Assembly (NCBI GenBank): GCA_938010435.1
Contig: CALLUS010000030.1
Location: forward strand, 1-41,703
Reading direction: 5' to 3'
Length of the DNA stretch: 41,703 nt
Source of the DNA: an uncultured Rhizobiaceae group bacterium
GTDB taxonomy: Bacteria; Pseudomonadota; Alphaproteobacteria; Rhizobiales; Rhizobiaceae
Positions 5,146 to 34,540 of this stretch are shown here, one piece after another (positions within the stretch are counted from its first letter, which is position 1; every line of letters starts with the position of its first letter). Position numbers and translations under genes: made by a program. The notes beneath the pieces are model-generated. The model did not search any database and had not been told where the DNA came from. It saw nothing but the letters and a program-made list of their open reading frames with translations.

Positions 5146-5157
5146 GAGAGGAAAACG

Positions 5158-11242: not shown

Positions 11243-11275
11243 ACCACGAAATGATGAGTAATTGGGAGAAATAGA

Positions 11276-14147: not shown

Positions 14148-15194
14148 ATGACAAAGAGAACAACAGCAATCAAGACGGTAATGAGTGCAGCTTTGGGTGC
14201 GATGCTTGCAAGCACAGCTCAAGCACAAGAAGTCACGCTGAAGATGCATCAATTCCTTCCCGCCCAAGCAAATGTACCCAAACTGGTCCTAGATGTTTGG
14301 GCCGATAAAGTTCAGGAAACATCGGGCGGTAAAATCAAGATTGATCGCTTTCCTTCTATGCAATTGGGTGGCAAACCGCCTGAGCTGATGGACCAAGCGG
14401 TTGATGGTGTTGCTGACATCGTATGGACTGTAGTTGGTTACACACCTGGACGTTTTCCAACGACCGAAGTTTTTGAACTTCCGTTTCTCGTTGAAGACGC
14501 TCGTGCTGCGTCATGTGCATACTCAAAGATGTTCGATGAGCACATGAAAGATGGCGAATTCAAAGATCTAAAAATTCTCGGCACTTGGGTTCACGGGCCT
14601 GGTATGTTCCACACGAATGAACCTGTCGAAAAACCTGCTGATCTACAAGGGATGAAAATTCGCGGTGGATCGCGTTTGGTAAACCAACTGCTGACACGTG
14701 CGGGAGCAACGCCTGTCGGCATGCCTGTTCCAGCCGTTCCTGAAGGTTTGTCGAAAGGGGTTATCGACGGGACAACAATCCCTTGGGAAGTAACAACAGC
14801 ATTAAAGGTTCCGGAACTGGTTGAAAATCATACAGAATTTAAAGGACCAGCTCTTTACAATCTGACCTTCGTTTTAGCTATGAACAAGCAGAAGTATGAA
14901 AGCTTATCTGCTGAGATGAAGAAAGCGATTGACGACAATTCGGGATTGAAATTTTCTGTTTTTGCCGGTGGTGTTCAGGCAGATGCTGATGGTCCTGCGC
15001 GCAAAATTGCTGTCGACAATGGAAACAACATCGTCACCGTGACAGATACGTCCGAATGGAAAAAATTGGTTGAACCGATCTACGGACAATGGGTTGCTGA
15101 CATGAAAGCCAAAGGTATCGATGGTCAAGCGCGTATCGATCAGGCCAAAAGCTTGATGAGTGGTGAATGCAAGGGCATGACTGCCAAGCTGTAA
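14148..15194 (+). CDS. dctP: TRAP transporter substrate-binding protein (DctP family), aromatic-acid cluster
   Basis: The product has 348 residues. A signal peptide spans residues 1-27 (MTKRTTAIKTVMSAALGAML, then STAQA-Q). The mature receptor begins EVTLKMHQFLPAQANV and carries the DctP helix region (LQGMKIRGGSRLVNQLLTRAGA), in which the arginine is the expected carboxylate ligand. The start at 14148 has GGGAGG 7 bp upstream; an in-frame upstream ATG at 14133 lies before that site and is unlikely. It opens the aromatic operon, so the ligand is probably a hydroxycinnamate or benzoate-like acid, as for the TRAP receptors beside cou genes in Rhodopseudomonas (established for that family, inferred here). 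Confidence 0.9.
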   Translation: MTKRTTAIKTVMSAALGAMLASTAQAQEVTLKMHQFLPAQANVPKLVLDVWADKVQETSGGKIKIDRFPSMQLGGKPPELMDQAVDGVADIVWTVVGYTPGRFPTTEVFELPFLVEDARAASCAYSKMFDEHMKDGEFKDLKILGTWVHGPGMFHTNEPVEKPADLQGMKIRGGSRLVNQLLTRAGATPVGMPVPAVPEGLSKGVIDGTTIPWEVTTALKVPELVENHTEFKGPALYNLTFVLAMNKQKYESLSAEMKKAIDDNSGLKFSVFAGGVQADADGPARKIAVDNGNNIVTVTDTSEWKKLVEPIYGQWVADMKAKGIDGQARIDQAKSLMSGECKGMTAKL

Positions 15195-15203
15195 TTCAAA
15201 TGT

Positions 15204-15233
15204 AAGGCCGCAGGGCATGTGTGTTGCGGCCTT
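15204..15233 (+). terminator. Hairpin after the second dctP (attenuating terminator)
   Basis: AAGGCCGCA (15204-15212) pairs perfectly with TGCGGCCTT (15225-15233) around a 12-nt loop, and TTGCTTT follows. It sits between dctP and dctQ, as in the first TRAP operon. It overlaps an in-frame GTG at 15221 that would otherwise be a possible dctQ start. Confidence 0.65.
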
Positions 15234-15250
15234 TTGCTTTGGTTTTATTC

Positions 15251-15835
15251 ATGTTTCGATTTGTTCATAATTTGGCGCGCTTGTTTGCGTTGCTCGGCGG
15301 TTTTGTCCTCGCTGGGTTGATCGTTTTGACCTGCTTGTCGATTGCGGGACGATCCATAAATTCAATATTACACAGTGGTTTTCTACAGTCGGTTGCGCCA
15401 GATACTGCATCGCTTTTTTTGGCTTCGGGTGTAGGGCCTATCAACGGCGACTTTGAATTGGTTGAAGCAGGAATGGCGTTTACGATCTTCGCATTTTTGT
15501 CTCTTTGTCAGTTGAACGGGTCTCACGCATCCGTTGATATTTTTACTTCAAGTCTAGGGCCGCGGGTTCAACAATGGTTACGAACGATCATTGAGATCGT
15601 ATTTGCTGCGATATTGGTTTTGATTGCTTGGCAACTGTTTGAAGGAATGGAAAGTAAACGACGTTCTGGCCAGACGTCCTTTCTGCTGGAAATGCCAGTT
15701 TGGTGGGCATACGCCACAAGCCTCTTGGCATGCGCTGTCGCAACATTTGTTGCTGTCTATGTCGCGGTTGCGCGCATTATAGAACTCACCACTGGCCGTT
15801 TAATATTGCCTCCTGAAATGGAGGCAAGCCATTGA
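15251..15835 (+). CDS. dctQ: TRAP transporter small permease subunit (DctQ)
   Basis: The product has 194 residues, a normal size for the family. Four hydrophobic segments are visible: about 8-30 (ALLGGFVLAGLIVLTCLSI), 70-90 (AGMAFTIFAFLSLCQL), 110-132 (IIEIVFAAILVLIAWQLF) and 152-175 (YATSLLACAVATFVAVYVAV). The ATG at 15251 is preferred because the alternative GTG at 15221 falls inside the hairpin; neither has a convincing ribosome binding site. The stop overlaps the TTG start of dctM. It works with the receptor at 14148 and DctM at 15832. Confidence 0.85.
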   Translation: MFRFVHNLARLFALLGGFVLAGLIVLTCLSIAGRSINSILHSGFLQSVAPDTASLFLASGVGPINGDFELVEAGMAFTIFAFLSLCQLNGSHASVDIFTSSLGPRVQQWLRTIIEIVFAAILVLIAWQLFEGMESKRRSGQTSFLLEMPVWWAYATSLLACAVATFVAVYVAVARIIELTTGRLILPPEMEASH

Positions 15836-17328
15836 GTGATCTTATGATCGGGCTGCTATCGTTCCCAGCTCTTCTAGGTCTTATATTTCTGCGCGTACCA
15901 ATTGGTCTTGCCATGTTTTTGGCTGGATTGGTCGGTCTGCTGATTGTTACTGGAGACACGACACTTCCATTTGCTCGGCTTAAGTCGGAAACCTACGGAA
16001 CGTTTTCGAATTACTCACTTTCTATCGTGCCAATGTTTTTGCTGATGGGACATTTTGCGACGCTCGGTGGAATGAGCCAAGCGCTGTTTAAGGCTGCAGA
16101 AAGTTGGCTTGGCCACCGCAAAGGTGGCGTTGCAATGGCGGCCGTTGGTGCCTGTGCTGGCTTTGGTTCAATCTGTGGGTCTTCATTGGCGACTGCTGCA
16201 ACCATGAGCCGTGTGGCGTTGCCCGAATTGAAGGCCTATGGATATGCAGGTGGCTTTTCAACAGCCACATTGGCTGCGGGGGGGACGCTTGGGATTTTGA
16301 TACCCCCGTCTGTGGTTCTCGTTATCTATGCCATCCTCACCGAGCAAAATATTGCAAAACTGTTTCTTGCAGCATTTATTCCCGGGATTCTTGCCGCGCT
16401 GGGATATATGATCGCTATTTCAATCTATGTGCGCATCAATCCGGAATCTGCCGGCACGAGACCGAGAGTTGCCTATCTCGACCGTCTTAGAACCATTGTT
16501 GATGTTTGGCCCGTACTTATTGTTTTCTTTTTGGTTGTCGGCGGCATCTATTTGGGATGGTTCACCCCAACAGAAGGAGCTGCTGTTGGCGCTTTAGGAA
16601 CAGGACTGATTGCTTGGTTCTCAGGTGGATTAAACCGCGCGTCTTTGTCAGAGAGTTTTTACACCACAGCGCGATCATCAGCGATGATCTTCTTCATTGT
16701 TTTAGGTGCGGCTTATTACAATGGCTTTCTGGCGTTGACCCAATTGCCTCAAGAAGCCGCTGCGTGGGTGGGAGAGAGCGGATACAGCCCCTGGTTGATA
16801 TTGATTGGTGTATTGATCTTTTACCTATTGCTCGGTTGTCTGATGGACAGTTTGAGTATGATCTTACTGACGATCCCTATCTTTTGGCCGATCATTCAGG
16901 AACTTGATTTTGGTCTTGTGTCGATGATCGACCTGCAATCTGCTAAGCTTGATGAATTGATCGCAAGCGGCAAGCAGCTTCCGCAAGCACTTGTTTCCGA
17001 AGCACAAGGTATTCTTGCCAGCGGTCAGGAACTGACCAGAGAACTCACGAGGGAATTAGGTCTTCGCGGTGTTACAAAGGGTGCACTCAGTCGATTAAAC
17101 ACCGAACAAGTTGCCATCTGGTTCGGTATCCTTGTGCTGATTGTGGTTGAAGTTGGACTTATCACGCCGCCGGTTGGAATGAATCTATTTGTCATCAATG
17201 CGGTAGATCGAGCGACTCCTATCGTCGAAACATACAAAGCAGTTGTCTATTTTGTAGCTTCTGACCTTATCCGCGTCGCCGTTCTTGTGGCGTTTCCTTT
17301 CATCACACTGGCGCTTTTGCCTTGGTAG
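15832..17328 (+). CDS. dctM: TRAP transporter large permease subunit (DctM)
   Basis: The product has 498 residues and more than ten hydrophobic segments. DctM signatures include AAGGTLGILIPPSVVLVIYAIL, YLGWFTPTEGAAVGALGTGL and LGCLMDSLSMILLTIPIFWPII. The start is taken as TTG at 15832, which has GGAGG 7 bp upstream and overlaps the dctQ stop; the first ATG (15844) is too far from that site. A hydrophilic insertion of about 60 residues (near 365-425, with repeated acidic/basic residues such as LTRELTREL) precedes the final membrane segments and is not usual in shorter family members. Confidence 0.9.
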   Translation: MSDLMIGLLSFPALLGLIFLRVPIGLAMFLAGLVGLLIVTGDTTLPFARLKSETYGTFSNYSLSIVPMFLLMGHFATLGGMSQALFKAAESWLGHRKGGVAMAAVGACAGFGSICGSSLATAATMSRVALPELKAYGYAGGFSTATLAAGGTLGILIPPSVVLVIYAILTEQNIAKLFLAAFIPGILAALGYMIAISIYVRINPESAGTRPRVAYLDRLRTIVDVWPVLIVFFLVVGGIYLGWFTPTEGAAVGALGTGLIAWFSGGLNRASLSESFYTTARSSAMIFFIVLGAAYYNGFLALTQLPQEAAAWVGESGYSPWLILIGVLIFYLLLGCLMDSLSMILLTIPIFWPIIQELDFGLVSMIDLQSAKLDELIASGKQLPQALVSEAQGILASGQELTRELTRELGLRGVTKGALSRLNTEQVAIWFGILVLIVVEVGLITPPVGMNLFVINAVDRATPIVETYKAVVYFVASDLIRVAVLVAFPFITLALLPW

Positions 17329-17352
17329 TTGTCTTTTTCAGGAGACTTAAAT

Positions 17353-18117
17353 ATGGAAATTGACGGTTCGAATTCTGTTGTTGTTGGAGGTGCAAGTGGT
17401 CTTGGTGAGTCAACAGCTCGCTATTTTGCTGATAAAGGATCAAACGTAACAATTCTAGATTTCAACGGCGAAAAGGCTGCCCAAGTTGCAGCTGAAATCA
17501 GCGGTTATTCTCAGCAATGTGATGTTGCCGAGGAGGAATCTGTTGCAGCAGGTATTACATCGGCCATGGCTCGATTTGGGGAAGCACCCAGAATTGTCAT
17601 CAATTGTGCGGGCATAGGTGTCGCAGCCAGAATTGTGGGGCGTGAAGGTAAAGTATCTACCCCACTGTTTCGTCGTGTAATCGATGTCAATTTGATTGGC
17701 TCATACAACGTCATGACTTATGCGGCGCAAGGTATGATGGATTTACCCGAACTGGAAACCGGGGAACGGGGCGTAATCATCAATACATCGTCTGCAGCAT
17801 ACGAAGATGGCCAATTGGGGCAGGCGGCCTATGCAGCTTCAAAGGGCGCGATCGCGTCCATGTGTCTTCCCGCTGCCCGCGAGTTTGCAAAGCTCGGCAT
17901 TCGGGTCATGGCGATCGCACCAGGTCTCTTCAACACCCCCATGATGGAAGGTTTGCCAGAAGAGACTGTTGATCAGATTACAGCAAATATACCATTTCCT
18001 CACCGCCTTGGAGCGCCGCATGAATTCGCTCAAATGGCGGGGGATATTGTCGAAAATCCATATTTGAACGGCACAACCATCCGATTGGATGGTGCGGTGC
18101 GACTGCCACCGAGGTGA
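17353..18117 (+). CDS. Short-chain dehydrogenase, 3-hydroxyacyl-CoA dehydrogenase type 2 (HSD10)-like
   Basis: The product has 254 residues. The cofactor motif is GGASGLGES (about 12-20), D is at the end of beta-2 (ILDFNG, NAD preference), and NCAGIG and the catalytic S-Y-K (NTSSAAYEDG, YAASK) are present. The insert between the cofactor and catalytic motifs and the ending DGAVRLPPR resemble HSD17B10-type enzymes, which oxidise 3-hydroxyacyl-CoA to 3-ketoacyl-CoA. AGGAGA precedes the ATG. Next to a crotonase and a phenylpropenoyl-CoA ligase, it probably oxidises a 3-hydroxy-3-arylpropionyl-CoA, like CouN of Rhodococcus p-hydroxycinnamate catabolism (analogy by gene content). Confidence 0.85.
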   Translation: MEIDGSNSVVVGGASGLGESTARYFADKGSNVTILDFNGEKAAQVAAEISGYSQQCDVAEEESVAAGITSAMARFGEAPRIVINCAGIGVAARIVGREGKVSTPLFRRVIDVNLIGSYNVMTYAAQGMMDLPELETGERGVIINTSSAAYEDGQLGQAAYAASKGAIASMCLPAAREFAKLGIRVMAIAPGLFNTPMMEGLPEETVDQITANIPFPHRLGAPHEFAQMAGDIVENPYLNGTTIRLDGAVRLPPR

Positions 18118-18121
18118 ATGT

Positions 18122-18883
18122 ATGACTTTAATAAATAGAGAGATCGACGGTTCTATCGCGACGATCACTATGAACCGTCCTGACAAGCGAAATGCCATGT
18201 CAGATGCATTTATTGCACAATTAGAAGCTGCCTTTTCATCACTTCCCGACGCCGTGCGCGTTGTCATACTCACTGGTGCCGGAGGGCATTATTGCTCCGG
18301 ACTGGACTTGGCTGAACATGTCGAAAGAAGTGCTGAAGAAGGAATATATCATTCGCGAAATTGGCACCGAATTCTGGACTTGATTCAATTCGGTGGAAGG
18401 CCTGTCGTGAGCGCAATGTCAGGTGCGGTTATCGGCGGCGGTCTTGAAATAGCCGCCGCTACGCATGTACGCATCGCCGAACCTTCAACCATTTTTCAAC
18501 TGCCTGAAGGCCGACGTGGAATTTTTGTTGGTGGTGGTGCAACTGTGCGTGTTGGTCGAATTCTCGGACCTGACCGCATGACTGAAATGATGCTGACTGG
18601 CCGGAAATACAATGCGGACGAGGGGCAAGCATTGGGTTTGGCGCATTATTCAGTTGGTGAAACCGAAGCGATGGAGCTTGCCAAAGAACTTGCTGGTAAA
18701 ATTTCAAGAAATGCACCTTTGTCAAATTACTTCATGGTGCAAGCCTTGGCTCGAATTGGAGACATGTCTCAAGCTGACGGGCTGTTCACAGAGAGTCTTT
18801 GTGCGGCTTTGAGTCAAACGACACCTGACGCCGAAGAAGGTTTAAAGGCATTCCTAGAAAAGCGAGTGCCCAAATTCCGATGA
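18122..18883 (+). CDS. Crotonase-family enoyl-CoA hydratase
   Basis: The product has 253 residues. N-terminal MNRPDKRNAMSD, oxyanion-hole segments (GHYCSGLDL and SGAVIGGGLE) and both catalytic glutamates of classical enoyl-CoA hydratases are present: GGGLEIAA (Glu144-like) and LPEGRRG (Glu164-like). It is therefore likely to hydrate an arylpropenoyl-CoA. It lies 4 bp after the HSD10-like gene and overlaps the MarR gene by 4 bp. With an adjacent 3-hydroxyacyl-CoA dehydrogenase, hydration followed by oxidation is more likely than the vanillin-forming hydratase/aldolase reaction, although the latter is not excluded. The ATG at 18122 follows GAGGTGA; an upstream in-frame start at 18089 would overlap the previous gene. 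Confidence 0.85.
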   Translation: MTLINREIDGSIATITMNRPDKRNAMSDAFIAQLEAAFSSLPDAVRVVILTGAGGHYCSGLDLAEHVERSAEEGIYHSRNWHRILDLIQFGGRPVVSAMSGAVIGGGLEIAAATHVRIAEPSTIFQLPEGRRGIFVGGGATVRVGRILGPDRMTEMMLTGRKYNADEGQALGLAHYSVGETEAMELAKELAGKISRNAPLSNYFMVQALARIGDMSQADGLFTESLCAALSQTTPDAEEGLKAFLEKRVPKFR

Positions 18884-19344
18884 GTGAAGCAAAGGACAGC
18901 AACCTACGTGAATTAACTGGTTATCTTTTGCGTCGCGCTATCAGTGCCAGTATGCCGGCAACAAACCGCTTGCTCGGCGAATTAGGTTTGCGCAGGACAA
19001 CTTTCTCTGCGTTAACGGTTGTTGGCAACAATTCAGGTCTCAGCCAAAGTCAGCTTGCTAAAGTGCTATCTATTGAACGTCCCAACATTGTTAAGATCAT
19101 TGATGAGCTAGAAAAGTCTAACTTGGTCGAACGACACCCAACACCGAATGACCGGCGAACCTATTCACTGTCAGCGACCAAGGCAGGTGTAATACTGCAA
19201 AAGCAAGCACAGTCTAGGCTGCAACAATATGAACAGCAGCTGACGCACGGTCTGTCACCTTCGGAGATTGAAGAGCTGCACAGAATGCTAAATTTGATCG
19301 AAGCCAATGCATCTGAAAAACCCCGGCAAGAGGAGGTGTCTTAG
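18880..19344 (+). CDS. MarR-family transcriptional regulator
   Basis: The product has 154 residues. The winged-helix core spans about 35-105: SQSQLAKVLSIERPNIVKII for the recognition helix region and LVERHPTPNDRRTYSL for the wing, which contains the family's DRR motif. It overlaps the crotonase by ATGA and the ligase GTG start by one base, so it is made together with the pathway enzymes. MarR repressors beside hydroxycinnamate genes (CouR, FerR types) are relieved by the aryl-CoA thioester. The same ligand logic is expected here but is inferred. Possible operator: the inverted repeat at 14018-14038. Confidence 0.88.
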   Translation: MSEAKDSNLRELTGYLLRRAISASMPATNRLLGELGLRRTTFSALTVVGNNSGLSQSQLAKVLSIERPNIVKIIDELEKSNLVERHPTPNDRRTYSLSATKAGVILQKQAQSRLQQYEQQLTHGLSPSEIEELHRMLNLIEANASEKPRQEEVS

Positions 19345-21146
19345 TGAGTACGAAGTATCGAAACCATCATGTAATTCGTGAGGATCTTCCCAATGGGAAT
19401 ATCTTGTTAAAATCAGGTGATCCGCTTGGGCAAGTGGCTGAACGCACGACCGACTGGTTAGATAATTGGGCAGAGAGAACACCTGATGCGATTTTTCTCG
19501 CAGAACGGTCTGGCGATGGGTGGCGTGAAGTCAGCTATGCTGATGCGCGTGATCAGGCGCTTGCAATTGCAAGTGGTCTAGCTGGTCTTGGCTTGGACCA
19601 ATCAAAACCAATTCTGATTCTGTCTGGTAACAGCGTTGATCACGGATTGCTGGCGTTAGCCGCCCAATATGTTGGCGTCCCAATAGTGCCTTTGCCCGAA
19701 CAGTATTCACTTATTTCGGCTGCGAGAAACCAGATAGACTTAGCTGCTTCAATGATACAACCCGGCGCAGTTTTTGCTGAAGATGCTAATGTATTTTCTG
19801 AAGCTTTAGGACGTGAAGTTTTCGACAATGTTCATAAGATAAGTAGCAGTGGTGGTGGTCCAGATATTCGCTCTCTAGAAACATTGAAGAAGATGGAGAA
19901 CGATATTTCGTTTGATATGGCACGGGTCAATCATGACTCGGTTGCTAAAATTCTAATGACATCGGGGTCGACATCAGCTCCAAAAGGTGTTCCCACAACT
20001 CATCGTATGATGTGTGTCAATCAAGCTCAGATAGCTCACGCACTGCCTTTCCTTGTTGATCATCCGCCTTTGATTGTCGATTGGTTGCCTTGGAACCACG
20101 TATTTGGAGGATCACACAACTTCAATCTGATGCTTGCAAACGGCGGGGCGCTCTATATCGATGGTGGTAAACCAACGCCTCAACTTGTCGGTCAGACACT
20201 GGAAAACCTGCGCCTGAAAACAGGCACAATGGCATTCAATGTTCCTGCCGGGTTTGCCATGATCCGCGATGAATTGCGCAAGGATAAAAATTTACGTCGA
20301 CGCTATTTCGAGAGCCTTGATATGCTTTTTTATTCGGGTGCCAGTCTGCCTCAAGATGTTTGGGCTGACCTAGAAGACATGGCGCGAGAAGTTCGTGGTG
20401 ATATGCCATTGTTTACGTCTTCTTGGGGACTGACTGAAACAGCTCCGGCAGTGCTTCTCCAACATCAACCGACCGACAGGTCAGGTGTGATTGGTGTTCC
20501 TTTGCCGGGCGTTGATATTAAACTGATACCCGATGCCGACAATAGATGCGAAGTTCGCGTCAAAGGTCCAAATATATTTTCAGGTTATTGGGATAACCCC
20601 GAAGTCACGGCAAAGGCCTTTGACGATGAAGGCTATTTCATAACTGGCGATGCCATGAACTTCGTAAAGTGGGATGATCCAAATTTGGGTTTGAAGTTTG
20701 ATGGTCGGATTTCTGAAGAATTCAAACTTCTTTCAGGGACATGGGTACGTGCCGCTGGTTTGCGTTTGTCTTTGATCGCCGAGCTAAAAAACGTCGCCTC
20801 AGACATCGTTATCACTGGCGCAGACCGAAATGATATCGGACTTTTCGTCATTCCAACGGCGTTGACCCGGGAAGCGAATGATCTGTCAGAAGACAATGGA
20901 GCAATTGTGAGTCTTTCCATCGCAGACAAACTGCGTGAGGCACTTGGAAACATTGGTGGTTCAAACTCAACCCGCATCGCGCGCGCTATGGTTCTTTCGG
21001 AACCACCATCTATTGCGGACGGAGAAATCACAGCAAAAGGCAATCTCAACAATCGCAAAATTTTAACACGCCGGAAAGTCTTACTAGAGCGTCTTTATGA
21101 TGACACTGATCCGGCGACCATTCTAATTGGAACTGCTGCCAAATGA
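19344..21146 (+). CDS. Feruloyl-CoA synthase-type acid-CoA ligase
   Basis: The product has 600 residues and belongs to the ANL adenylate-forming superfamily. The P-loop is ILMTSGSTSAPKGVPTTH (around residue 210). The segment WLPWNHVFGGSHNFNLML is characteristic of the feruloyl-CoA synthase branch. Later motifs are SSWGLTETAP and YFITGDAM, and the C-terminal catalytic lysine region is ITAKGNLNNRKIL. It activates a hydroxycinnamate-like acid with ATP and CoA. GTG start, with AGGAGG 7 bp upstream. The order hydratase-regulator-ligase-amidohydrolase indicates that its CoA product is hydrated and shortened by its neighbours. The ring substituents of the substrate cannot be read from the sequence. 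Confidence 0.88.
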   Translation: MSTKYRNHHVIREDLPNGNILLKSGDPLGQVAERTTDWLDNWAERTPDAIFLAERSGDGWREVSYADARDQALAIASGLAGLGLDQSKPILILSGNSVDHGLLALAAQYVGVPIVPLPEQYSLISAARNQIDLAASMIQPGAVFAEDANVFSEALGREVFDNVHKISSSGGGPDIRSLETLKKMENDISFDMARVNHDSVAKILMTSGSTSAPKGVPTTHRMMCVNQAQIAHALPFLVDHPPLIVDWLPWNHVFGGSHNFNLMLANGGALYIDGGKPTPQLVGQTLENLRLKTGTMAFNVPAGFAMIRDELRKDKNLRRRYFESLDMLFYSGASLPQDVWADLEDMAREVRGDMPLFTSSWGLTETAPAVLLQHQPTDRSGVIGVPLPGVDIKLIPDADNRCEVRVKGPNIFSGYWDNPEVTAKAFDDEGYFITGDAMNFVKWDDPNLGLKFDGRISEEFKLLSGTWVRAAGLRLSLIAELKNVASDIVITGADRNDIGLFVIPTALTREANDLSEDNGAIVSLSIADKLREALGNIGGSNSTRIARAMVLSEPPSIADGEITAKGNLNNRKILTRRKVLLERLYDDTDPATILIGTAAK

Positions 21147-22018
21147 TTGATCTTGAAAAAATTCGCGCTGTCGACATTCACACCCACGCGGAAGAGCCCT
21201 GTGGGTGTCATGCAGATGACGGTTACGATGAATTGCAATCCACAATGGCGAAGTATTTTCGTGCACCATGGGAACATCCGCCAACGATCGCTGAAACGGC
21301 TGTTCATTACCGCGAACAAAACATTGCTGCGGTAATCTTTCCAGTCGATGCAGAACGAGAGACGGGCTATCGACGCTACTCCAATGATGAAGTTGCCGAA
21401 CAAGTTGCTCAGAACAGTGATGTGTTGATTCAGTTCGCGTCCATTGATCCGTGGAAAGGGAAAATGGGAGTGCGTGAAGCACGTCGATTGATCCGCGAAT
21501 ACAAAGTCAAAGGATTTAAGTTTCATCCGACCATGCAAGGCTTTTTCGCCAATGATCGAATGGCTTATCCGCTCTACGAGGTTTTGCAAGAAGAAGGTTG
21601 TATTGCATTGTTCCATACGGGCCAGACGGGCGTTGGTTCTGGGATGCCTGGTGGCAATGGTATGCGGTTGAAATATTCAAACCCGATGACAATGGACGAT
21701 GTGGCTGTTGATTTCCCTGATTTAAAAATCATTCTGGCTCATCCATCGTTTCCTTGGCAGGAGGAGGCGCTGGCAGTCGCGCAACACAAGCCGAATGTTT
21801 ACATCGATTTATCCGGTTGGTCGCCGAAATATTTTCCAGAAATTTTGGTGCGTTACTGCAATTCAATCTTACGTAAAAAAGTTATTTTCGGGTCAGATTG
21901 GCCAATGATTTCTCCGGAACGTTGGTTGGCTGACTTTGAAAAAATCGGGATCAAAGACGAATTGCGTCCTGACATCATCAAAAACAATGCGGCTCGTTTG
22001 TTGGGGTTGATGGACTAA
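21143..22018 (+). CDS. Amidohydrolase family protein (ACMSD-like), candidate 3-ketoacyl-CoA retro-Claisen hydrolase
   Basis: The product has 291 residues and an amidohydrolase barrel. Metal ligands are visible: DIHTHAE (HxH), LFHTGQ, ILAHPSFPW and the last-strand Asp in FGSDWPM. It starts within the ligase stop (ATGA). In Rhodococcus jostii p-hydroxycinnamate catabolism, as I recall, an amidohydrolase-type protein (CouO) is placed after ligase, hydratase and dehydrogenase and cleaves the aryl-3-ketopropionyl-CoA to a benzoate plus acetyl-CoA. The same four activities sit together here, so this role is proposed by analogy. A decarboxylase, the ACMSD-family alternative, is also possible. Confidence 0.8.
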   Translation: MIDLEKIRAVDIHTHAEEPCGCHADDGYDELQSTMAKYFRAPWEHPPTIAETAVHYREQNIAAVIFPVDAERETGYRRYSNDEVAEQVAQNSDVLIQFASIDPWKGKMGVREARRLIREYKVKGFKFHPTMQGFFANDRMAYPLYEVLQEEGCIALFHTGQTGVGSGMPGGNGMRLKYSNPMTMDDVAVDFPDLKIILAHPSFPWQEEALAVAQHKPNVYIDLSGWSPKYFPEILVRYCNSILRKKVIFGSDWPMISPERWLADFEKIGIKDELRPDIIKNNAARLLGLMD

Positions 22019-22043
22019 ATTGAATGTTTGGGAGGACATGATT

Positions 22044-24394: not shown

Positions 24395-24840
24395 TGGGTT
24401 CAAAAGAGTTTCAACCCAGTCACGCCTATATTCCGGGACTTAATAAGCGCCATGCAGAAGGTCTTTTTGACCATATCCGGGACACAGCCAAATCAGGCAT
24501 GTCAGCAAAGGTTTTGGCCCAGAGTGAAGCATTTCAAACGGGCCTGCGGTTTATCGAAGAGCAATATTTTTGGGAAGCTCATGAGGTACTTGAGCCTGTT
24601 TGGATGTTGCTTGAGAAATTCAGTGATGAGCGTCATTTCGTTCAAGGCCTTATTCAATTGGCAAATGGTTTGCTAAAAATGCGTATGAATCGCCCGAAGG
24701 CGGCGCATCGTTTGGCCATTATTGCGCTCAGTCTTGTAAGTCTTGGGAAAGCTGAATTTGTAATGAACGTGAAACGAGAAGATTTCATTCTTAAAATAAG
24801 AGAATTGGAACATAATTCAAAATTGCAATATAATGCATGA
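24394..24840 (+). CDS. DUF309 domain-containing protein
   Basis: The product has 148 residues. It carries the DUF309 signature: FWEAHEVLEPVWMLLE at about 65-80, followed by FVQGLIQLANGLLKM. This is a small all-helical domain with conserved Glu and His residues that could bind metal. Members occur singly in many bacteria with no settled function. It overlaps the hydrolase stop by one base (TGATG). Presence inside an aromatic operon is odd and gives no clear hint; it may simply be carried along. Confidence 0.8.
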   Translation: MGSKEFQPSHAYIPGLNKRHAEGLFDHIRDTAKSGMSAKVLAQSEAFQTGLRFIEEQYFWEAHEVLEPVWMLLEKFSDERHFVQGLIQLANGLLKMRMNRPKAAHRLAIIALSLVSLGKAEFVMNVKREDFILKIRELEHNSKLQYNA

Positions 24841-24975
24841 TTTTTTCTAATTTGGAATTAATTCATTAAAATGTTGTTTTAATACAATAATATTTTGCTT
24901 TATTTTGCATATTTTGATTTACCGGCATTTTCTAAACCTCTAAGATTTATCAAAGTCGCATCTAAGAGGTTTCCA
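24841..24975 (+). promoter_or_regulatory. AT-rich promoter/operator region of the box operon
   Basis: The 135 bp between the DUF309 gene and boxC are strongly AT-rich. TGCA occurs at 24824, 24834 and 24906. BzdR/BoxR-type repressors are known to bind operators built on TGCA repeats, and a BoxR homologue is encoded at 30017. A clear -35/-10 pair could not be chosen with confidence. AAGAGG at about 24964-24969 is the boxC ribosome binding site. Confidence 0.4.
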
Positions 24976-26634
24976 ATGACCAAGGTAATTGATTTTCAAA
25001 CCGATCCCACAAAATATCGCCACTGGCGGGTGGAGTATGATGGTCCAATTGCTAACCTGATCATGGATGTGGATGAGAATGGCGGGCTCTTTGAAGGATA
25101 TGAGTTAAAGCTCAACTCTTATGATCTCGGTGTAGACATTGAACTCAATGACATTGTTCAACGTATGCGTTTCGAGCATCCGGAAGTAAAAGTTGTCGTG
25201 ATGCAATCCGGCAAGGACAAAGTATTTTGTGCCGGTGCCAACATTCGAATGTTGGGTGGCGCTGCTCATTCTCACAAAGTCAATTTCTGTAAGTTCACAA
25301 ATGAAACTCGCAACGCATTTGAAGCCGCGGAATTCGACAGCGACCAGAAATATATTGCAGCCGTCAAAGGTGCTTGCGCAGGCGGTGGATACGAATTGGC
25401 GTTGGCTTGCAATCACATCATGCTCACTGATGACAGCACCTCGGCGGTCGGTTTGCCCGAGGTTCCGCTTCTGGCTGTTCTTCCGGGAACTGGGGGTCTG
25501 ACGCGCGTAACGGACAAGCGCAAAGTGCGTCGCGATTTGGCTGATGTCTTTTGCTCCATAGAAGAAGGGGTTAAAGGACAACGTGCCAAAGATTGGCGTT
25601 TGGTTGATGAAGTCATTGCAAATTCAAAATTCGAGGAAACAGTTCAAGAACGTGCAAAAGAATTCGCGGATGCTTCTAACAAGAGTGAAATCGCAAAGGG
25701 TGTTGAGTTTGGACCTCTTGATCGCGCAATCGGCGAGAACGATCTGATTTATTCGTTGGTTGAAGTCGAGATAGACCGCGTAGGACGGAAAGCGACGATA
25801 ACACTCAAAGGCCCGCAAGAAGATGCACCATCCGATATGGATGCTTTTCAAGCGCAGGGCGATCAAGCTTATATGCTGCGCCTATGTCGTGAACTGGAAG
25901 ACACGATTTTGCATCTGCGCCTTAACGAGATGGAAGCAGGTCTGTGGGTGTTCAAGACCCAAGGAGACTCTGAGATATTTGCTGCTCACGAGAAGCTTCT
26001 GGCCGACAATGCGGATCATTGGCTGGCCCATGAAGTTCGTCAGTATTGGAAGCGCACACTAAAGCGTGTTGATGTAAGTTCTCGTTCGCTGGCTGCATTC
26101 GTTGAGCACGGTTCTTGTTTTACAGGTGTTCTTGCTGAACTTCTGTTTGCGGTCGATCGTACGTACATGATGGAAGACGAGTTCGAAGGTGACAACCGTC
26201 CAACAGCTACCATCACTTTAACCGAATCTAACTTTGGTCCGTATCCGATGGGCAATGATTTGACCCGACTGCAAACACGTTTTTTGGGTGAGCCGGAATG
26301 TGTGGACTCAGCCAAAGAAAAAATCGGTGAAACGCTTGAAGCTGAAGAAGCTAGCAAAATGGGTCTCGTAACGATGATACTCGACGACATCGATTGGGAA
26401 GATGAAGTGCGCATATTTATGGAAGAGCGCGCAAGTTTCTCACCCGACGCTATGACGGGAATGGAAGCCAACTTGCGCTTTGCTGGCCCTGAAACAATGG
26501 AAACCAGAATTTTTGGGCGCCTGACAGCCTGGCAAAATTGGATATTCAACCGCCCCAACGCTGTGGGCGAAGACGGCGCACTGCAACGCTACGGGACTGG
26601 TGTACGTGGCGATTACAACATGGAACGTGTTTAG
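24976..26634 (+). CDS. boxC: Benzoyl-CoA-dihydrodiol lyase (2,3-epoxybenzoyl-CoA dihydrolase)
   Basis: The product has 552 residues, the usual BoxC size. An N-terminal crotonase-like domain shows VFCAGANIRMLGG (oxyanion), CAGGGYELALAC and LPEVPLLAVLPGTGGLTRV. It is followed by a second, divergent crotonase-like half. BoxC hydrolytically opens the 2,3-epoxide of benzoyl-CoA to 3,4-dehydroadipyl-CoA semialdehyde and formate. It acts after BoxA/BoxB, encoded next. The ATG at 24976 follows AAGAGG; an upstream in-frame start at 24895 lies in the promoter region and is not supported. Confidence 0.93.
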   Translation: MTKVIDFQTDPTKYRHWRVEYDGPIANLIMDVDENGGLFEGYELKLNSYDLGVDIELNDIVQRMRFEHPEVKVVVMQSGKDKVFCAGANIRMLGGAAHSHKVNFCKFTNETRNAFEAAEFDSDQKYIAAVKGACAGGGYELALACNHIMLTDDSTSAVGLPEVPLLAVLPGTGGLTRVTDKRKVRRDLADVFCSIEEGVKGQRAKDWRLVDEVIANSKFEETVQERAKEFADASNKSEIAKGVEFGPLDRAIGENDLIYSLVEVEIDRVGRKATITLKGPQEDAPSDMDAFQAQGDQAYMLRLCRELEDTILHLRLNEMEAGLWVFKTQGDSEIFAAHEKLLADNADHWLAHEVRQYWKRTLKRVDVSSRSLAAFVEHGSCFTGVLAELLFAVDRTYMMEDEFEGDNRPTATITLTESNFGPYPMGNDLTRLQTRFLGEPECVDSAKEKIGETLEAEEASKMGLVTMILDDIDWEDEVRIFMEERASFSPDAMTGMEANLRFAGPETMETRIFGRLTAWQNWIFNRPNAVGEDGALQRYGTGVRGDYNMERV

Positions 26635-26693
26635 CACCCGTTACGGCAAAATGAGTGCTTTCCGCGCTGAAACGATTTACCAAGGAGAAGACC

Positions 26694-28145
26694 ATGCAAG
26701 ACCTGTTGAGTGTAAACTATGACACCAAAATCCCGAACAATGTCGGTTTGAGTGAAGACCGCAAAGTACTGAAAGCTTTGGAAAAATGGCACCCGGGTTA
26801 CATCAACTGGTGGAACAAACTCATCCCTCAAAATTTCCAAGAATCAATGGTTTACTTGCGTACTGCTGTATCCGTGGACCCAAAAGGGTGGGCGAAGTTC
26901 GACTACGTGAAAATGCCCGATTATCGTTGGGGCGTGCTTCTGGCACCACAGGTTGAAAATCGCATCATTCCCTTTGGTGAACATGCGGGAAAGCCCGCTT
27001 GGCAGGAAGTGCCGGGGGAATATCGCAATATGCTCAAGCGCTTGATCGTTATTCAGGGTGACACCGAGCCGGGGTCTGTTGAACAGCAACGTTTCTTGGG
27101 TCTCACTGCACCTTCGCTTTACGATATGCGTAATTTGTTTCAGGTGAATGTGGAAGAAGGGCGCCATCTTTGGGCAATGGTCTATTTGTTGCAAAAATAT
27201 TTTGGCAAAGATGGCCGCGAAGAAGCCGATGATTTGTTGCGTCGTTCGTCCGGTTCAGAAGATGCACCACGTATGTTGGGCGCTTTCAACGAAGAAACAC
27301 CCGATTGGTTGTCTTTCTTCATGTTCACATATTTCACCGACCGTGACGGAAAAATGCAGCTTGAGTCTTTGGCACAATCAGGATTTGACCCGATGTCGCG
27401 GACCTGTCGCTTTATGCTTACGGAAGAAGCGCATCACATGTTTGTAGGTGAAACCGGTGTAGGCCGGGTCATTCAGGCAACGTGTGAGGCGATGAACAAA
27501 GCCGGTATTACCGATCCGTACGATATCGGCCGTGTGCGCGATCTGGGAGTTATTGATCTACCAACCATTCAGAAAAAGTTGAACCTGCATTATTCCTTGT
27601 CACTGGATCTATTTGGTCAGGAAGTTTCCACTAACGCTGCTAATGCATTTAACGCCGGTGTTAAAGGGCGTTATATGGAACAAAGGATCGATGACGATCA
27701 CAAGCTGCAAAACGACACCTATAAAGTTCGCAATGTCGTGGATGGTAAAATTGTTGAGGAAGAGGTTCCTGCTCTGACAGCAATTAATATGCGCCTGCGT
27801 GATGATTATATCCGTGACGCATCTGGCGGAATTGGACGCTGGAATAAAGCGATCGAAAAAGCGGGCGTGAACTTTAAACTTGTGCTGCCGCACGAAGCAT
27901 TCCACCGCCAGATTGGTGTTTTCTCATCCATCAAAGCAGATATGGATGGAAACGTGATTTCCGATGCCGAATGGACAGTCAGCGAAGGCAAATGGTTGCC
28001 GACCCGTGAAGATGGAGCATATATCGAGTCGCTCATGGTACCTTGCTATGAGCCGGGTAAATACGCGCGTTGGATCGCTCCACCAAAGGTCGGTATCGAC
28101 AATAAGCCGGGCGACTTCGAGTATGTAAAATTACACATGGCCTAA
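26694..28145 (+). CDS. boxB: Benzoyl-CoA 2,3-epoxidase oxygenase component
   Basis: The product has 483 residues, matching BoxB. Two diiron motifs are visible: E154-E-G-R-H158 and E244-E-A-H-H248, each in the expected helices (VNVEEGRHLWAMVYLLQKYF and MLTEEAHHMFVGETG). BoxB uses O2 and electrons from BoxA to epoxidise benzoyl-CoA. AGGAGA precedes the ATG. BoxD, the semialdehyde dehydrogenase of the pathway, is not found in this window. Confidence 0.94.
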   Translation: MQDLLSVNYDTKIPNNVGLSEDRKVLKALEKWHPGYINWWNKLIPQNFQESMVYLRTAVSVDPKGWAKFDYVKMPDYRWGVLLAPQVENRIIPFGEHAGKPAWQEVPGEYRNMLKRLIVIQGDTEPGSVEQQRFLGLTAPSLYDMRNLFQVNVEEGRHLWAMVYLLQKYFGKDGREEADDLLRRSSGSEDAPRMLGAFNEETPDWLSFFMFTYFTDRDGKMQLESLAQSGFDPMSRTCRFMLTEEAHHMFVGETGVGRVIQATCEAMNKAGITDPYDIGRVRDLGVIDLPTIQKKLNLHYSLSLDLFGQEVSTNAANAFNAGVKGRYMEQRIDDDHKLQNDTYKVRNVVDGKIVEEEVPALTAINMRLRDDYIRDASGGIGRWNKAIEKAGVNFKLVLPHEAFHRQIGVFSSIKADMDGNVISDAEWTVSEGKWLPTREDGAYIESLMVPCYEPGKYARWIAPPKVGIDNKPGDFEYVKLHMA

Positions 28146-28217
28146 CGCACGCTATTAGGATGGAAGGACTTGTCATTCCTCCACTTTGATCGGGTTAATA
28201 ATTCAACGGGAGACGTG

Positions 28218-28376
28218 ATGTTGATAGAACGAAAAGCTTTAAAGCCGCGTAGAGATTTTAAGATCGTGAAAGATAATTGTATCGGTTGTCCTGATTGCGA
28301 AGGTGTATGTGCTGAATATTTACACTTGATCCAATACCCAGAGGTAATGGCTGGAATTCGAGAGGCTCGCACGTGA
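28218..28376 (+). CDS. Small ferredoxin-like protein between boxB and boxA
   Basis: The product has 52 residues with a single cluster motif, C21-x2-C24-x2-C27-x3-C31 (CIGCPDCEGVC), after a basic N-terminus (RKALKPRRDFK). The spacing is that of one [4Fe-4S] centre, but the Pro that usually follows the fourth Cys is replaced by Ala. GGGAG lies 5 bp before the ATG, and the stop overlaps the boxA GTG start by 4 bp, so it is co-translated with BoxA. BoxA already has its own two clusters, so this is an extra component. It could be an electron carrier for BoxA/BoxB. I do not know of a named family for it. Confidence 0.65.
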   Translation: MLIERKALKPRRDFKIVKDNCIGCPDCEGVCAEYLHLIQYPEVMAGIREART

Positions 28377-29566
28377 CAGGGCCACTCAAGCAGCATCTTA
28401 TAGACCCGGAAATTTGTATTCGTTGCTACACGTGCGAAATGACTTGTCCCATTGAAGCTATTACCCACGATGACAACAATGTTGTCGTGGATGAATCAAA
28501 GTGTAATTTCTGCTTGGACTGCATTCCAGTCTGCCCCACTGGTTCAATCGATGAATGGCGAGTCGTTGATAAGCCGTATTCTTTAGATGAACAATTTGGT
28601 TGGGATGAACTGCCTGAACAAGGTGAAGTGACCCAACTCGAAATCGTAGATAGCGATACGACTGAAGGCGGTGATCCAATTGTTGCTTTGCTTGCGGAGG
28701 CTCATAGTGGAGCAGGGGGCAAAGCCAAGGCACCTGCATCAGCCAGTAAGCCTTCACTAAATCTCTACAATCTTGGGCATCCGGTCGAAGCTGTTGTGCA
28801 GGGCAATTATCGCCTGACCTCAGAAGAGTCTGAATCAGATGTGCGTCACATCATTCTTGATTTTCAAGGGACACCGTTTCCTGTTTTGGAAGGGCAGTCT
28901 GTAGGCATTATCGCTCCTGGAACAGATCAGGAAGGCAAACTTCATTTGCCACGCCTCTATTCGGTATCCAGTCCGCGTGATGGGGAACGCCCTGGTTATC
29001 ACAACGTTTCACTGACTGTGAAACGTGACAATCCAGGAATATGTTCGAACTATCTTTGTGATTTACAGAAGGGTGACAAGGTTCAAGTCACAGGGCCATT
29101 TGGAGCAACCTTCTTGCTTCCATCTGACCCCAATGCGCGTTTGTTGATGGTCTGTACCGGCACTGGTTCTGCGCCAATGCGATCTTTCACAATGGCGCGG
29201 CAACGCACTGTTGGTGAAAAATCTGGCGGCATGGTTATGTTTTTTGGTGCCCGCACTCCTGACAGTCTTCCTTATTTCGGACCTCTGAAAAAAGTTCCTG
29301 AAACACTTCTCCAACAACATTTGGTGTTTAGCCGTATGCCAAATAATGAAAAGGAATACGTACAAGATCGAATGAAAGTGGAAGAAGATTTGATTGCTGA
29401 AATGCTCCAAGATGACAACACCCATATTTACGTCTGCGGATTGAAGACAATGGAAGATGGTGTTGAACACGCATTCACAGACATCGCGGAATCTTTTGGT
29501 CAACAATGGCGTACCTTGCGCGATTCGATGCGTGAAGATGGTCGCTATCACGTCGAAACATATTAA
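28373..29566 (+). CDS. boxA: Benzoyl-CoA 2,3-epoxidase reductase component
   Basis: The product has 397 residues. The N-terminal two-cluster ferredoxin has Cys 15, 18, 21, 25 and 44, 47, 50, 54 (CIRCYTCEMTCP, CNFCLDCIPVCP). After a linker rich in Ala, Ser and Lys comes a ferredoxin-NADP+ reductase module: FAD motif PRLYSVSSPRDG, GICSNYLCDL, and the NADP motif MVCTGTGSAPMRSF. It passes electrons from NADPH to BoxB. GTG start inside the preceding small ferredoxin gene. The length and domain order match known BoxA. Confidence 0.93.
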   Translation: MTGPLKQHLIDPEICIRCYTCEMTCPIEAITHDDNNVVVDESKCNFCLDCIPVCPTGSIDEWRVVDKPYSLDEQFGWDELPEQGEVTQLEIVDSDTTEGGDPIVALLAEAHSGAGGKAKAPASASKPSLNLYNLGHPVEAVVQGNYRLTSEESESDVRHIILDFQGTPFPVLEGQSVGIIAPGTDQEGKLHLPRLYSVSSPRDGERPGYHNVSLTVKRDNPGICSNYLCDLQKGDKVQVTGPFGATFLLPSDPNARLLMVCTGTGSAPMRSFTMARQRTVGEKSGGMVMFFGARTPDSLPYFGPLKKVPETLLQQHLVFSRMPNNEKEYVQDRMKVEEDLIAEMLQDDNTHIYVCGLKTMEDGVEHAFTDIAESFGQQWRTLRDSMREDGRYHVETY

Positions 29567-29567
29567 T

Positions 29568-30017
29568 ATGGAAGCGCGGTCAGTCGGTGCATTCGAACAC
29601 GGAATCCGTGTCACATGGGGAGACTGCGATCCGGCAAAAATTGCCTATACTGGGCGACTGCCTTGGTTTGCTCTGGATGCAATAAACGCATGGTGGGAGA
29701 ACAATTTAGACGGAGATGGTTGGTTTCAAATAGAGTTGGACCGAAACGTCGGCACTCCCTTTGTCCGGCTGGAAATGGACCTTATTTCTCCTGTCACACC
29801 CCGTTACGAATTGAAGTGTTATGTTTGGCCCGTGAAGTTGGGGGACACCTCAATCACCTTCAGGGTTGACGGCGAACAAGATGGAAATCTGTGCTTTTCA
29901 TTCAGATCAGTAAGCGTTTTTACAATTGCTGATAAGTTTGAGAAGCAAGGGGTGCCGAAAGAGTTTCGGGAAACCATCGAGAGACACTTACCAGCTAGCA
30001 ATTTGGTTGATGTCTAA
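29568..30017 (+). CDS. 4-hydroxybenzoyl-CoA thioesterase-like (hot-dog) acyl-CoA thioesterase
   Basis: The product has 149 residues and a single hot-dog domain. The family motif WGDCDPAKIAYTGRLPWF carries the catalytic Asp (DCDPA) as in 4-hydroxybenzoyl-CoA thioesterase. It may release trapped aryl-CoA, or act on a pathway intermediate to recycle CoA. The ATG lies 1 bp after the boxA stop, without a clear ribosome binding site, suggesting coupling. The frame is open upstream to 29457, but that part lies inside boxA. The next gene overlaps by one base. Confidence 0.85.
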   Translation: MEARSVGAFEHGIRVTWGDCDPAKIAYTGRLPWFALDAINAWWENNLDGDGWFQIELDRNVGTPFVRLEMDLISPVTPRYELKCYVWPVKLGDTSITFRVDGEQDGNLCFSFRSVSVFTIADKFEKQGVPKEFRETIERHLPASNLVDV

Positions 30018-30937
30018 TGGCAGAAAACAAACTTCAATTTGATCATAAGTCAATCGCGGCAGTATCATCTGAAAACGATGCAGGGGTCTCTGCTCTCATT
30101 CGTTTGGTTGGCGAAAGAGTGAAGCAGGTTCGCAAGACATGCCATTTGTCTCGCAGAGAACTCTCTGAGCGATCCGGCGTGTCACCCCGCTATCTGGCCC
30201 AATTGGAAAGCGGGGAGGGGAACATATCGATCGGATTGTTACAGAAAGTGGCCGTCGCTCTTGATCAACCAATAGAAGCCTTTTTGCGTCAGGCAGCTTC
30301 ACGTTCAGTGGAAGCAGATTACGTGGCATCGTTTTACAGGCGCGCAGATGCTGTAACACGCACACGGGTAATGGAAATTCTTGATCCAGATCGTATGCGT
30401 GAACAAAAGGCCGAACGTATTTGTTTGGTTGGGTTACGCGGCGCAGGAAAATCGACACTAGGTGCGCTTGTTGGGGAAAAACTGGGCTTGCCGTTTATCG
30501 AGTTGAACTCTGCAATTGAAGAACGAGTGGGCATCGCAATTGGCGAAATCATAGCACTATATGGCCAAGAAGGTTTCAGACAAATGGAGGCTGATACACT
30601 CGACGATATTATCGCCAACCATAAAAGAGCGATCGTAGCGGTTGCAGGTGGCATCGTCTCGGAAGACTCCACGTTTCAACAAGTGCTGGCTCGATTTCAT
30701 ACGATTTGGGTGAGAACAACACCGAGTGAACATATGGACCGTGTCAAAGCGCAGGGCGACACACGTCCTATGGCTGGCAATCCGCAAGCAATGATCCAAC
30801 TTCGCGAAATTCTCAAAGCTCGGGAAGTGCTGTACGAACAAGCCGATTATGAACTCGATACCAATGGAAAGTCCGTGGTAGATAGCAAAACAGAGCTTCT
30901 GCACCTTCTTAGTTACAACGAAGTTATTGCTCTATGA
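30017..30937 (+). CDS. boxR: BoxR/BzdR-type regulator: XRE helix-turn-helix fused to a shikimate-kinase-like domain
   Basis: The product has 306 residues. An N-terminal XRE/HTH_3 domain spans about 28-85 (LSRRELSERSGVSPRYLAQL, ESGEGNISI). After a linker comes a shikimate-kinase-like domain with P-loop G139-LRGAGKST, then an SK-like core (EEGFRQMEADTL-type region, VAVAGGIV, DTRPMA lid). In the known BzdR and BoxR repressors this domain senses benzoyl-CoA and derepresses the operon; the same is expected here. It overlaps the thioesterase gene by one base, so it is transcribed with its targets. The candidate operator lies before boxC. Confidence 0.92.
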   Translation: MAENKLQFDHKSIAAVSSENDAGVSALIRLVGERVKQVRKTCHLSRRELSERSGVSPRYLAQLESGEGNISIGLLQKVAVALDQPIEAFLRQAASRSVEADYVASFYRRADAVTRTRVMEILDPDRMREQKAERICLVGLRGAGKSTLGALVGEKLGLPFIELNSAIEERVGIAIGEIIALYGQEGFRQMEADTLDDIIANHKRAIVAVAGGIVSEDSTFQQVLARFHTIWVRTTPSEHMDRVKAQGDTRPMAGNPQAMIQLREILKAREVLYEQADYELDTNGKSVVDSKTELLHLLSYNEVIAL

Positions 30938-30985
30938 GCGAATTGCAATCCCTGTCGCATCTGACGTGCACGATCGGAGTTTTTT

Positions 30986-31708
30986 ATGGGAGATTTTGAT
31001 GATGCAGACGTTCTATCTTTAGACAAAGAGCAGTGTATCAATCTCATTGGCAGTAGATTGTTGGCCAGATATTATGAGGCGGCTGATACAGTTTTCATGG
31101 ACGGATCAACGCCTTGGGAAGTTGATGAGGCGATGGTAGAATTCGGTTTTTCCATGGGACCATTTGAAACGCAAGATTTGACGGGCGTGGATGTCTCCTA
31201 TGAAATTCGCCAAAGCAACCCATCTTATGATTCTGGTAATCGTCGAAGAATTCCGCTGATTACTCGATTGTTAGAACTGGGCAAGCTCGGCAAAAAATCA
31301 GGTGCAGGCTGGTATCGTTACCCTGGCGGCGGAGGCAAGGTCGATGATCCCATTGTCGCTGATTTAGCCATTGAAGAATCTTATTTTGAAAAGCGTGAAC
31401 GAGTAGATTATTCCGCCACGGAAATTTGTGAACGTTTGCTTTTTGCAATGATTCAAGAGGCTTGCGATATTCTGGATGCAGGAGTTGCACAAGGTACAGC
31501 CGATATTAATTTGGCTTCGATACAAATTTGCGGTTTTCCTAAATCAAAAGGAGGGGTGATGCAGTACGCTGGCACATTGGGTGCACAAACTCTCACCACT
31601 AAGTTTGCGGAGCTTGCAAAAGAAGATGCTGCGGTCTGGCGTATCAACCCAATGTCGCAGCGTTACATTGAAAACGGTTTCACACCCTCACAAACCAAAA
31701 GAACCTGA
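30986..31708 (+). CDS. Stand-alone C-terminal 3-hydroxyacyl-CoA dehydrogenase domains (no NAD-binding domain)
   Basis: The product has 240 residues. It starts at a point matching the first residues of the 3HCDH C-terminal domain (INLIGSRLLARYYEAADTVF, EFGFSMGPFETQDLTGVDV, GKKSGAGWYRYP) and continues into a second, FadB/FadJ-like 3HCDH domain (ATEICERLLFAMIQEACDIL). There is no GxGxxG Rossmann domain and no catalytic His/Glu, both of which lie in the missing part. CGGAG is 7 bp before the ATG, so it appears to be a real, separately started gene rather than a broken one. It may be a subunit or a substrate-binding partner. A strong terminator follows. Confidence 0.75.
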   Translation: MGDFDDADVLSLDKEQCINLIGSRLLARYYEAADTVFMDGSTPWEVDEAMVEFGFSMGPFETQDLTGVDVSYEIRQSNPSYDSGNRRRIPLITRLLELGKLGKKSGAGWYRYPGGGGKVDDPIVADLAIEESYFEKRERVDYSATEICERLLFAMIQEACDILDAGVAQGTADINLASIQICGFPKSKGGVMQYAGTLGAQTLTTKFAELAKEDAAVWRINPMSQRYIENGFTPSQTKRT

Positions 31709-31744: not shown

Positions 31745-31766
31745 TTCATACTAGGAATTGAAGCTC

Positions 31767-34537: not shown

Positions 34538-34540
34538 AAA

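Follow-up and report, generated by a model that had tools for sequence, protein, structure and literature searches.

A co-oriented gene cluster of a Rhizobiaceae bacterium joining a putative side-chain-shortening module for cinnamate-type acids to the aerobic benzoyl-CoA (box) pathway

Beta-oxidative deacetylation of arylpropenoic acids is described for the hca and cou systems, which share a coenzyme A (CoA) ligase, an enoyl-CoA hydratase, a dehydrogenase and a MarR repressor and end with an enzyme that yields the free aryl acid. In the ferulate route (hca) of Agrobacterium fabrum SpG8-1b these genes are Atu1416 (ligase), Atu1417 (crotonase), Atu1415 (dehydrogenase), Atu1421 and that of the MarR protein HcaR (PMC7797058), and in the cou system of Rhodococcus jostii RHA1, which acts on p-hydroxycinnamates, the amidohydrolase CouO releases the aromatic acid and CouR senses p-coumaroyl-CoA (PMC4737184). 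Piperic acid is reported to be shortened similarly by PipUVWX, enzymes that also took other acids tested (PMC12753220), and the tripartite ATP-independent periplasmic (TRAP) binding protein TarP of Rhodopseudomonas palustris to bind cinnamate and coumarate. The aerobic hybrid benzoyl-CoA (box) pathway is in turn described as comprising benzoate-CoA ligase (BCL), BoxA, BoxB, BoxC, an alpha/beta hydrolase and the regulator BoxR, whose motif is TGCA-N6-TGCA (PMC6449761). Here we analysed an entire 41.7-kb contig (41,703 nucleotides, the window) from the 3.57-Mb genome of an uncultured Rhizobiaceae bacterium, in which genes of both kinds lie together. Judging from the genes, we read this locus, with a probability of roughly 0.7, as a catabolic supercluster for cinnamate-type acids, built from an upper side-chain-shortening module and the box pathway.

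Every gene from the ATG of dctP at 14148 to the stop codon at 31708 lies on the plus strand, in a single co-oriented run. The order is TRAP transporter, short-chain dehydrogenase (SDR), crotonase, MarR, ligase, amidohydrolase, BCL, alpha/beta hydrolase, DUF309 protein, BoxC, BoxB, a small cysteine-rich gene, BoxA, thioesterase, BoxR and a 3HCDH-like gene, which bears out the gene list and the co-orientation given in an earlier note on this DNA. That note spoke of mostly 1-4 bp overlaps and overstated them: 7 of the 16 junctions between its genes overlap by 1-4 bp, the others being gaps, and counting the small gene, which it lacked, the figure is 8 of 17. The largest gaps precede boxC (54 nt if it starts at a TTG, 135 nt if at the ATG at 24976, which is likelier) and separate boxB from boxA (227 nt, containing the small gene). 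The co-oriented run extends past 31708 into a MobA-like gene (31758-33647), and a transposase gene (33703-34524) then closes off the cluster end.

The upper half begins with the TRAP solute-binding protein DctP (14148-15194; PF03480, 2e-40), the small membrane subunit DctQ (15221-15835; PF04290, 1.5e-19), which may in fact begin with the ATG at 15251, and the large membrane subunit DctM (15832-17328; PF06808, 5.5e-89). TarPQM of R. palustris is likewise a TRAP system at an arylpropenoate locus, and the likeness to DctP is one of locus context. There follow an SDR (17353-18117; PF00106, 7.3e-38), likely an aryl-3-hydroxypropionyl-CoA dehydrogenase; a crotonase-type arylpropenoyl-CoA hydratase (18122-18883; PRK08150/NF006013, 347 bits, cut-off 232); and a MarR-family regulator (18880-19344; PF01047, 4.7e-14) in the place of HcaR or CouR. 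The next gene (19344-21146) is assigned, also by its tree, as a PRK12582-like arylpropenoate-CoA ligase; PRK12582 (NF009232) is its best NCBIfam model, at 589 bits, under that model's cut-off of 777. The amidohydrolase (21143-22018; PF04909, 3.4e-52), likely an aryl-3-oxopropionyl-CoA hydrolase of the CouO/Atu1421 type, has no NCBIfam match at 1e-10, and a relative with 66% identity is annotated as 4-hydroxyphenyl-beta-ketoacyl-CoA hydrolase. Ligase, crotonase, dehydrogenase, amidohydrolase and MarR, the gene set of beta-oxidative deacetylation, are all present together. In the described hca and cou systems the product goes on to protocatechuate, whereas the window genes run directly into BCL and the box genes.

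The lower half opens with BCL (22020-23579; TIGR02262, 702 bits, cut-off 375; 474 bits to 4rlf), which starts 1 nt after the amidohydrolase ends. In the alignment with BadA, the residues that we take to form the benzoate pocket (A227, Y228, L332, H333 and I334) are all identical. An alpha/beta hydrolase (23576-24394; PF00561, 9.3e-16), of a kind found in most box clusters read, and a DUF309 protein (24391-24840; PF03745, 1.7e-18) precede the three box enzymes, each of which scores above its curated cut-off: BoxC, the 2,3-epoxybenzoyl-CoA dihydrolase (24895-26634, likely start 24976; TIGR03222, 964 bits, cut-off 712); BoxB, the benzoyl-CoA 2,3-epoxidase (26655-28145, likely start 26694; TIGR03225, 909 bits, cut-off 499; 694 bits to 3per); and BoxA, the ferredoxin/reductase component (28373-29566; TIGR03224, 544 bits, cut-off 459). 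The six residues of 3per that we presume to be di-iron ligands (E120, E150, H153, D211, E240 and H243) are identical in the aligned BoxB. A 4HBT thioesterase (29457-30017, likely start 29568; PF13279, 7.6e-06) and BoxR (30017-30937; PRK08154/NF006015, 340 bits, cut-off 204) come next. Betaproteobacterial box clusters are described as divergent and as including boxD, whereas the window cluster runs in one direction without boxD and has in addition the small cysteine protein and a 3HCDH C-terminal domain protein.

From these identities we infer substrates, order of flux, the CoA ligands of the regulators and transcript structure as follows. The TRAP transporter would import cinnamate-type acids, the first ligase would convert them to arylpropenoyl-CoA and the crotonase would hydrate this; the SDR would oxidise the 3-hydroxyacyl-CoA, and the amidohydrolase would split the 3-oxoacyl-CoA into acetyl-CoA and the free aryl acid. 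A second ligase would be placed ahead of the box enzymes because the product of the upper half is a free acid: benzoate derived from cinnamate would be re-activated by BCL and opened by BoxAB and BoxC, and 3-hydroxycinnamate would give 3-hydroxybenzoate and, through MobA, protocatechuate. The MarR repressor, freed by arylpropenoyl-CoA, would govern a promoter before dctP, and BoxR, freed by benzoyl-CoA, an inner promoter before boxC. For each of the steps that the earlier note had proposed (shortening to an aryl carboxylate, re-activation and box ring opening), support comes from family membership and from homologous pathways already described. If this is correct, cinnamate-type plant acids would reach central metabolism by a concrete route that recurs in other genomes and is governed by two nested CoA-ester sensors.

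The joining of the two modules recurs in other genomes. A scan for the amidohydrolase, from which the best 80 named loci were kept (57 of these span 20 kb or more), placed BCL and box genes beside it in 16 of these best 80, from Planktotalea, Tateyamaria, Mesobacterium, Aestuariivita, Sinisalibacter, Carideicomes, Ahrensia and two isolates whose names are less precise. Within the window's own order, the Rhizobiales, BoxB was found in 54 of 297 genomes and the amidohydrolase (E <= 1e-100) in 43, with both within 10 kb in two, the window and G172 (places read by eye). In the family of Planktotalea frisia, the Rhodobacteraceae, BoxB exceeded the cut-off in 66 of 315 genomes and the amidohydrolase was found in 84, the two lying at most 10 kb apart in 7. 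From those 66 genomes 45 box loci were read, with every one of the 7 cases among them and later-fetched copies counted. In 21 of the 45 the ligase is encoded within 9 kb upstream, on the same strand, L197 being one of these although other genes intervene there between ligase and BCL; 24 have no ligase in that place, and 7 have the amidohydrolase there. Among 34 further Rhizobiales box loci the ligase was linked in G172 only. The joining is thus graded, from TRAP-box through TRAP-ligase-box to clusters that add MarR and crotonase and finally the amidohydrolase. No description of it was found by title or abstract start in the open-access literature. The fusion that the earlier note had singled out is real, goes beyond chance and is a recurrent arrangement of two known pathways, but is not peculiar to this genome.

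The nearest rows to the window BoxB are from Ahrensia and Rhodobacteraceae. Of the 33 unlinked Rhizobiales rows, none belongs to the starred nine-row set in which the window BoxB falls, and 5 lie in a neighbouring group with Rhodobacteraceae. BoxB was found in none of the 12 other genomes of the window's family listed. The cluster was likely acquired by transfer. These findings, together with the transposase at 33703-34524, would also suit the view that the linkage is mere neighbourhood on a transferred stretch and has no metabolic meaning. We hold that view to be very improbable, given that the same order occurs in several genera, box-linked ligases sit at three separate places in their tree and 7 of 16 junctions overlap.

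Control of the two halves was examined through candidate operators. Before dctP lies a MarR-type operator-like palindrome, GTTATGTTTAGTAAC (14021-14035, plus strand), that matches 10 of the 12 positions of GTTATG-N3-CATAAC. Sites of at least 10/12 precede dctP in 7 of 15 fused upper modules (1.6% of mononucleotide shuffles), 15 of 29 unfused ones (1.1% of shuffles) and 1 of 8 TRAP-box loci that lack the ligase; an earlier consensus-free palindrome scan had given mixed matches and was superseded by this consensus test. A BoxR-type site, TGCA-N6-TGCA with an internal TATAAT, lies before boxC (24824-24837, plus strand) and is the sole match in the window. Such sites precede boxC in 12 of 20 fused loci, 27 of 37 other Rhodobacteraceae and 10 of 32 Rhizobiales loci (below 1% of shuffles). 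They are rare or absent before boxB (0/20, 1/38 and 0/33, respectively) and boxA (0 of 75 loci), and rarer before BCL (2/20, 11/36 and 2/27). Both regulators named in the earlier note, MarR and BoxR, are present, with operator-like sites at two places. The sites fit two nested control points and would predict two nested units, with BCL on the MarR side.

In the ligase tree, a single clade of 31 rows (support 98) takes in 29 of the 33 box-linked rows and two others, one of which comes from a contig too short for linkage to be judged; the remaining 4 box-linked rows lie at two further places. The tree included 52 upper-only rows from 64 unlinked loci, left out the partial ligase of L197 and, like the crotonase and amidohydrolase trees, took only matches above length and identity limits. 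The crotonase tree tracks box linkage less well (8 changes, shuffled mean 20.5). Later-fetched duplicates of named loci (L179, L180, L184, L192, L200 and L220) were omitted from the ligase, crotonase, amidohydrolase and BoxB trees and from the counts of cysteine proteins and BoxR sites.

Several observations weigh against the supercluster reading. A relative of the SDR is present in 6 of 20 fused clusters, the window included, and was not found in the other 14 (upstream unread in 2 of them). The amidohydrolase barely tracks box linkage (12 changes, shuffled mean 18.2), and the nearest relatives of the window copy are unlinked. Pocket-equivalent positions of the ligase, located by motif and partly after those of 4-coumarate-CoA ligase and luciferase, do not separate box-linked (31) from unlinked rows (47), with 7 rows of unclear place set aside. 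Ligase specialisation in box-linked clusters was therefore dropped as a candidate; the ligase clade may merely reflect shared inheritance of linked genes, and a cinnamate-only funnel is not supported. By chance the window should contain about 1.3 MarR-type matches as good as the one before dctP, whose weight therefore lies in its position alone, and the consensus was taken from three of the loci later counted (L025, L069 and L080). The single TGCA-N6-TGCA compares with 1.86 expected by chance; the window BCL has no BoxR-type site of its own, and such a site before BCL, tried as a mark of linkage, proved unrelated to ligase linkage (7/32 versus 6/24, p = 1). Finally, the window holds no BoxD (3,4-dehydroadipyl-CoA semialdehyde dehydrogenase); two PaaZ proteins elsewhere in the genome exceed the cut-off of the BoxD-type model NF008868.

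The exits of the upper module bear on how far its product is committed to the box genes. The gene at 31758-33647 encodes a MobA-type 3-hydroxybenzoate hydroxylase, with a near full-length match of 774 bits to MobA (2dkh), as compared with 360 bits to phenol hydroxylase 1pn0; here it sits at the end of a box cluster, as it lies downstream of box genes also in Planktotalea (L192) and Ahrensia (L200). PobA, LigA and LigB are encoded in the genome away from the window, and for protocatechuate 3,4-cleavage there is one intradiol dioxygenase match without an alpha/beta pair. With MobA adjoining and PobA and LigAB encoded elsewhere, ring-hydroxylated products could leave by other routes. The single funnel drawn in the earlier note is thus probably not right: the upper module probably has several exits, and a branching scheme fits better. 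An alternative goes further and takes a broad hydroxycinnamate module to be merely adjoining a benzoate module; its main substrates would be p-coumarate or 3-hydroxycinnamate, with their products leaving via PobA/LigAB or MobA and the box genes serving free benzoate. Among the best 80 module loci, box genes lie beside 16, MobA beside 15, PobA beside 7, LigAB beside 2 and none of these beside 42, which suits this alternative, as do the single amidohydrolase of this type (E <= 1e-100) in a genome with PobA and LigAB, the undifferentiated ligase pockets and the tolerance for varied substrates that such enzymes can show (PipUVWX, PMC12753220). We nevertheless consider it unlikely, as 29 of 33 box-linked ligases share one clade, box linkage is recurrent and BCL follows the amidohydrolase by only 1 nt. 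The supercluster reading, with its branches, would mean that one side-chain-shortening module is found beside differing ring-opening exits.

Two small proteins of these clusters seem undescribed and may be more novel than the joining itself. The first, of 52 residues (28218-28376, plus strand), carries four cysteines (C-x2-C-x2-C-x3-C) and overlaps boxA by 4 bp. A search with the cysteine pattern found it in the window but in none of the 33 loci of the Rhizobiales sample. Of 57 box loci not belonging to that sample, 40 encode it; these 57 come from Rhodobacteraceae, with the addition of Ahrensia (protein present) and L059 (protein absent). The cysteines are common to all rows by construction of the search; besides them, one proline and two glycines around them are near-universal. 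In a Pfam scan of three members none reached a cut-off, the best models for the window protein being 4Fe-4S ones. A mean ratio of non-synonymous to synonymous differences (pN/pS) of 0.43 over 47 pairs of this family of about 55 residues indicates purifying selection; the predicted structure (mean predicted local confidence, pLDDT, of 60) was not used. No description of a small BoxAB-associated protein was found among the open-access papers listed. If the assignment holds, it would be a candidate overlooked component of the benzoyl-CoA epoxidase in this Rhodobacteraceae-type group.

The second, at 30986-31708 (plus strand) after boxR, had been called a 3-hydroxyacyl-CoA dehydrogenase. It consists of 3HCDH C-terminal domains only and lacks both the NAD-binding catalytic domain and the HFF histidine motif, which we take to mark the catalytic domain of FadJ-type proteins; it is hence not a dehydrogenase. 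Downstream of boxR in 91 loci (L192 and L200 standing in for L009 and L020) we found 10 full FadJ-like proteins with the catalytic motif and 22 shorter forms without it, the window's included, 2 of which are cut by the locus end and 12 of which overlap boxR by 4 bp. The rest comprise one contig-end fragment and 58 loci with no such gene, with boxR on the opposite strand or unreadable. The tree of these proteins, which leaves out L232 because a contig end truncates it and has L026 and L074 as additional rows, needs four changes between full and short forms, two of them forced by starred branches. The pN/pS is 0.31 for the 155-residue Tateyamaria form, 0.25 for full-length forms and 0.57 for the longer non-catalytic forms. 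A pseudogene reading is possible for the latter and for the window copy, whose long end branch (0.65, versus 0.05-0.09 in its nearest full-length relatives) makes decay possible, and less likely for the Tateyamaria form. The fold of the window copy is predicted with moderate confidence (pLDDT 77), and its best structural match, 6ium (TM score 0.70 by query length), is to the C-terminal region of multifunctional beta-oxidation enzymes.

As a tentative and rather doubtful proposal, Rhodobacteraceae-type box operons might carry two undescribed functional proteins: a one-cluster ferredoxin-like third component of the BoxA-BoxB epoxidase, of about 55 residues, acting as electron carrier or assembly factor, and a dead 3HCDH C-terminal domain, often overlapping boxR by 4 bp, that would bind CoA esters and act together with either BoxR or the lower pathway. 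The upper and lower halves of fused clusters would be gated in series by two CoA-ester sensors. If true, the dehydrogenase beside boxR would have shed its catalytic half repeatedly and would lend itself to the study of how an enzyme is cut down to a binding domain.

PaaZ-type proteins of the genome lie at two loci, L257 (C3) and L250 (C2), one of them beside a full-length FadJ-like protein, which might replace the function eroded from the 30986 gene. A motif search for aldehyde dehydrogenases in the box loci returned none, and a Pfam search of the window's own genome was used instead. Four fused relatives (L019, L022, L059 and L080) have an acyl-CoA dehydrogenase between amidohydrolase and BCL. 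A protein of about 155 residues, which we take to be DUF4863-like, also occurs in L019, L059 and L080, and L020 has this protein only; the two together might form an entry for 3-phenylpropanoate. A second amidohydrolase of the same type (68-73% identity) occurs elsewhere in 4 of the 16 fused genomes (L127-L130).

Outside the cluster, the transposase at its end is of IS5 type and adjoins a tRNA-Phe gene (33703-34615 together); the rest of the genome holds two partial matches to it (82%). On the other side, at 769-12184, lies a sugar-acid cluster with enolase-superfamily dehydratases, a GntR regulator, a second TRAP system, a member of the galactarate/altronate dehydratase family and dehydrogenases.

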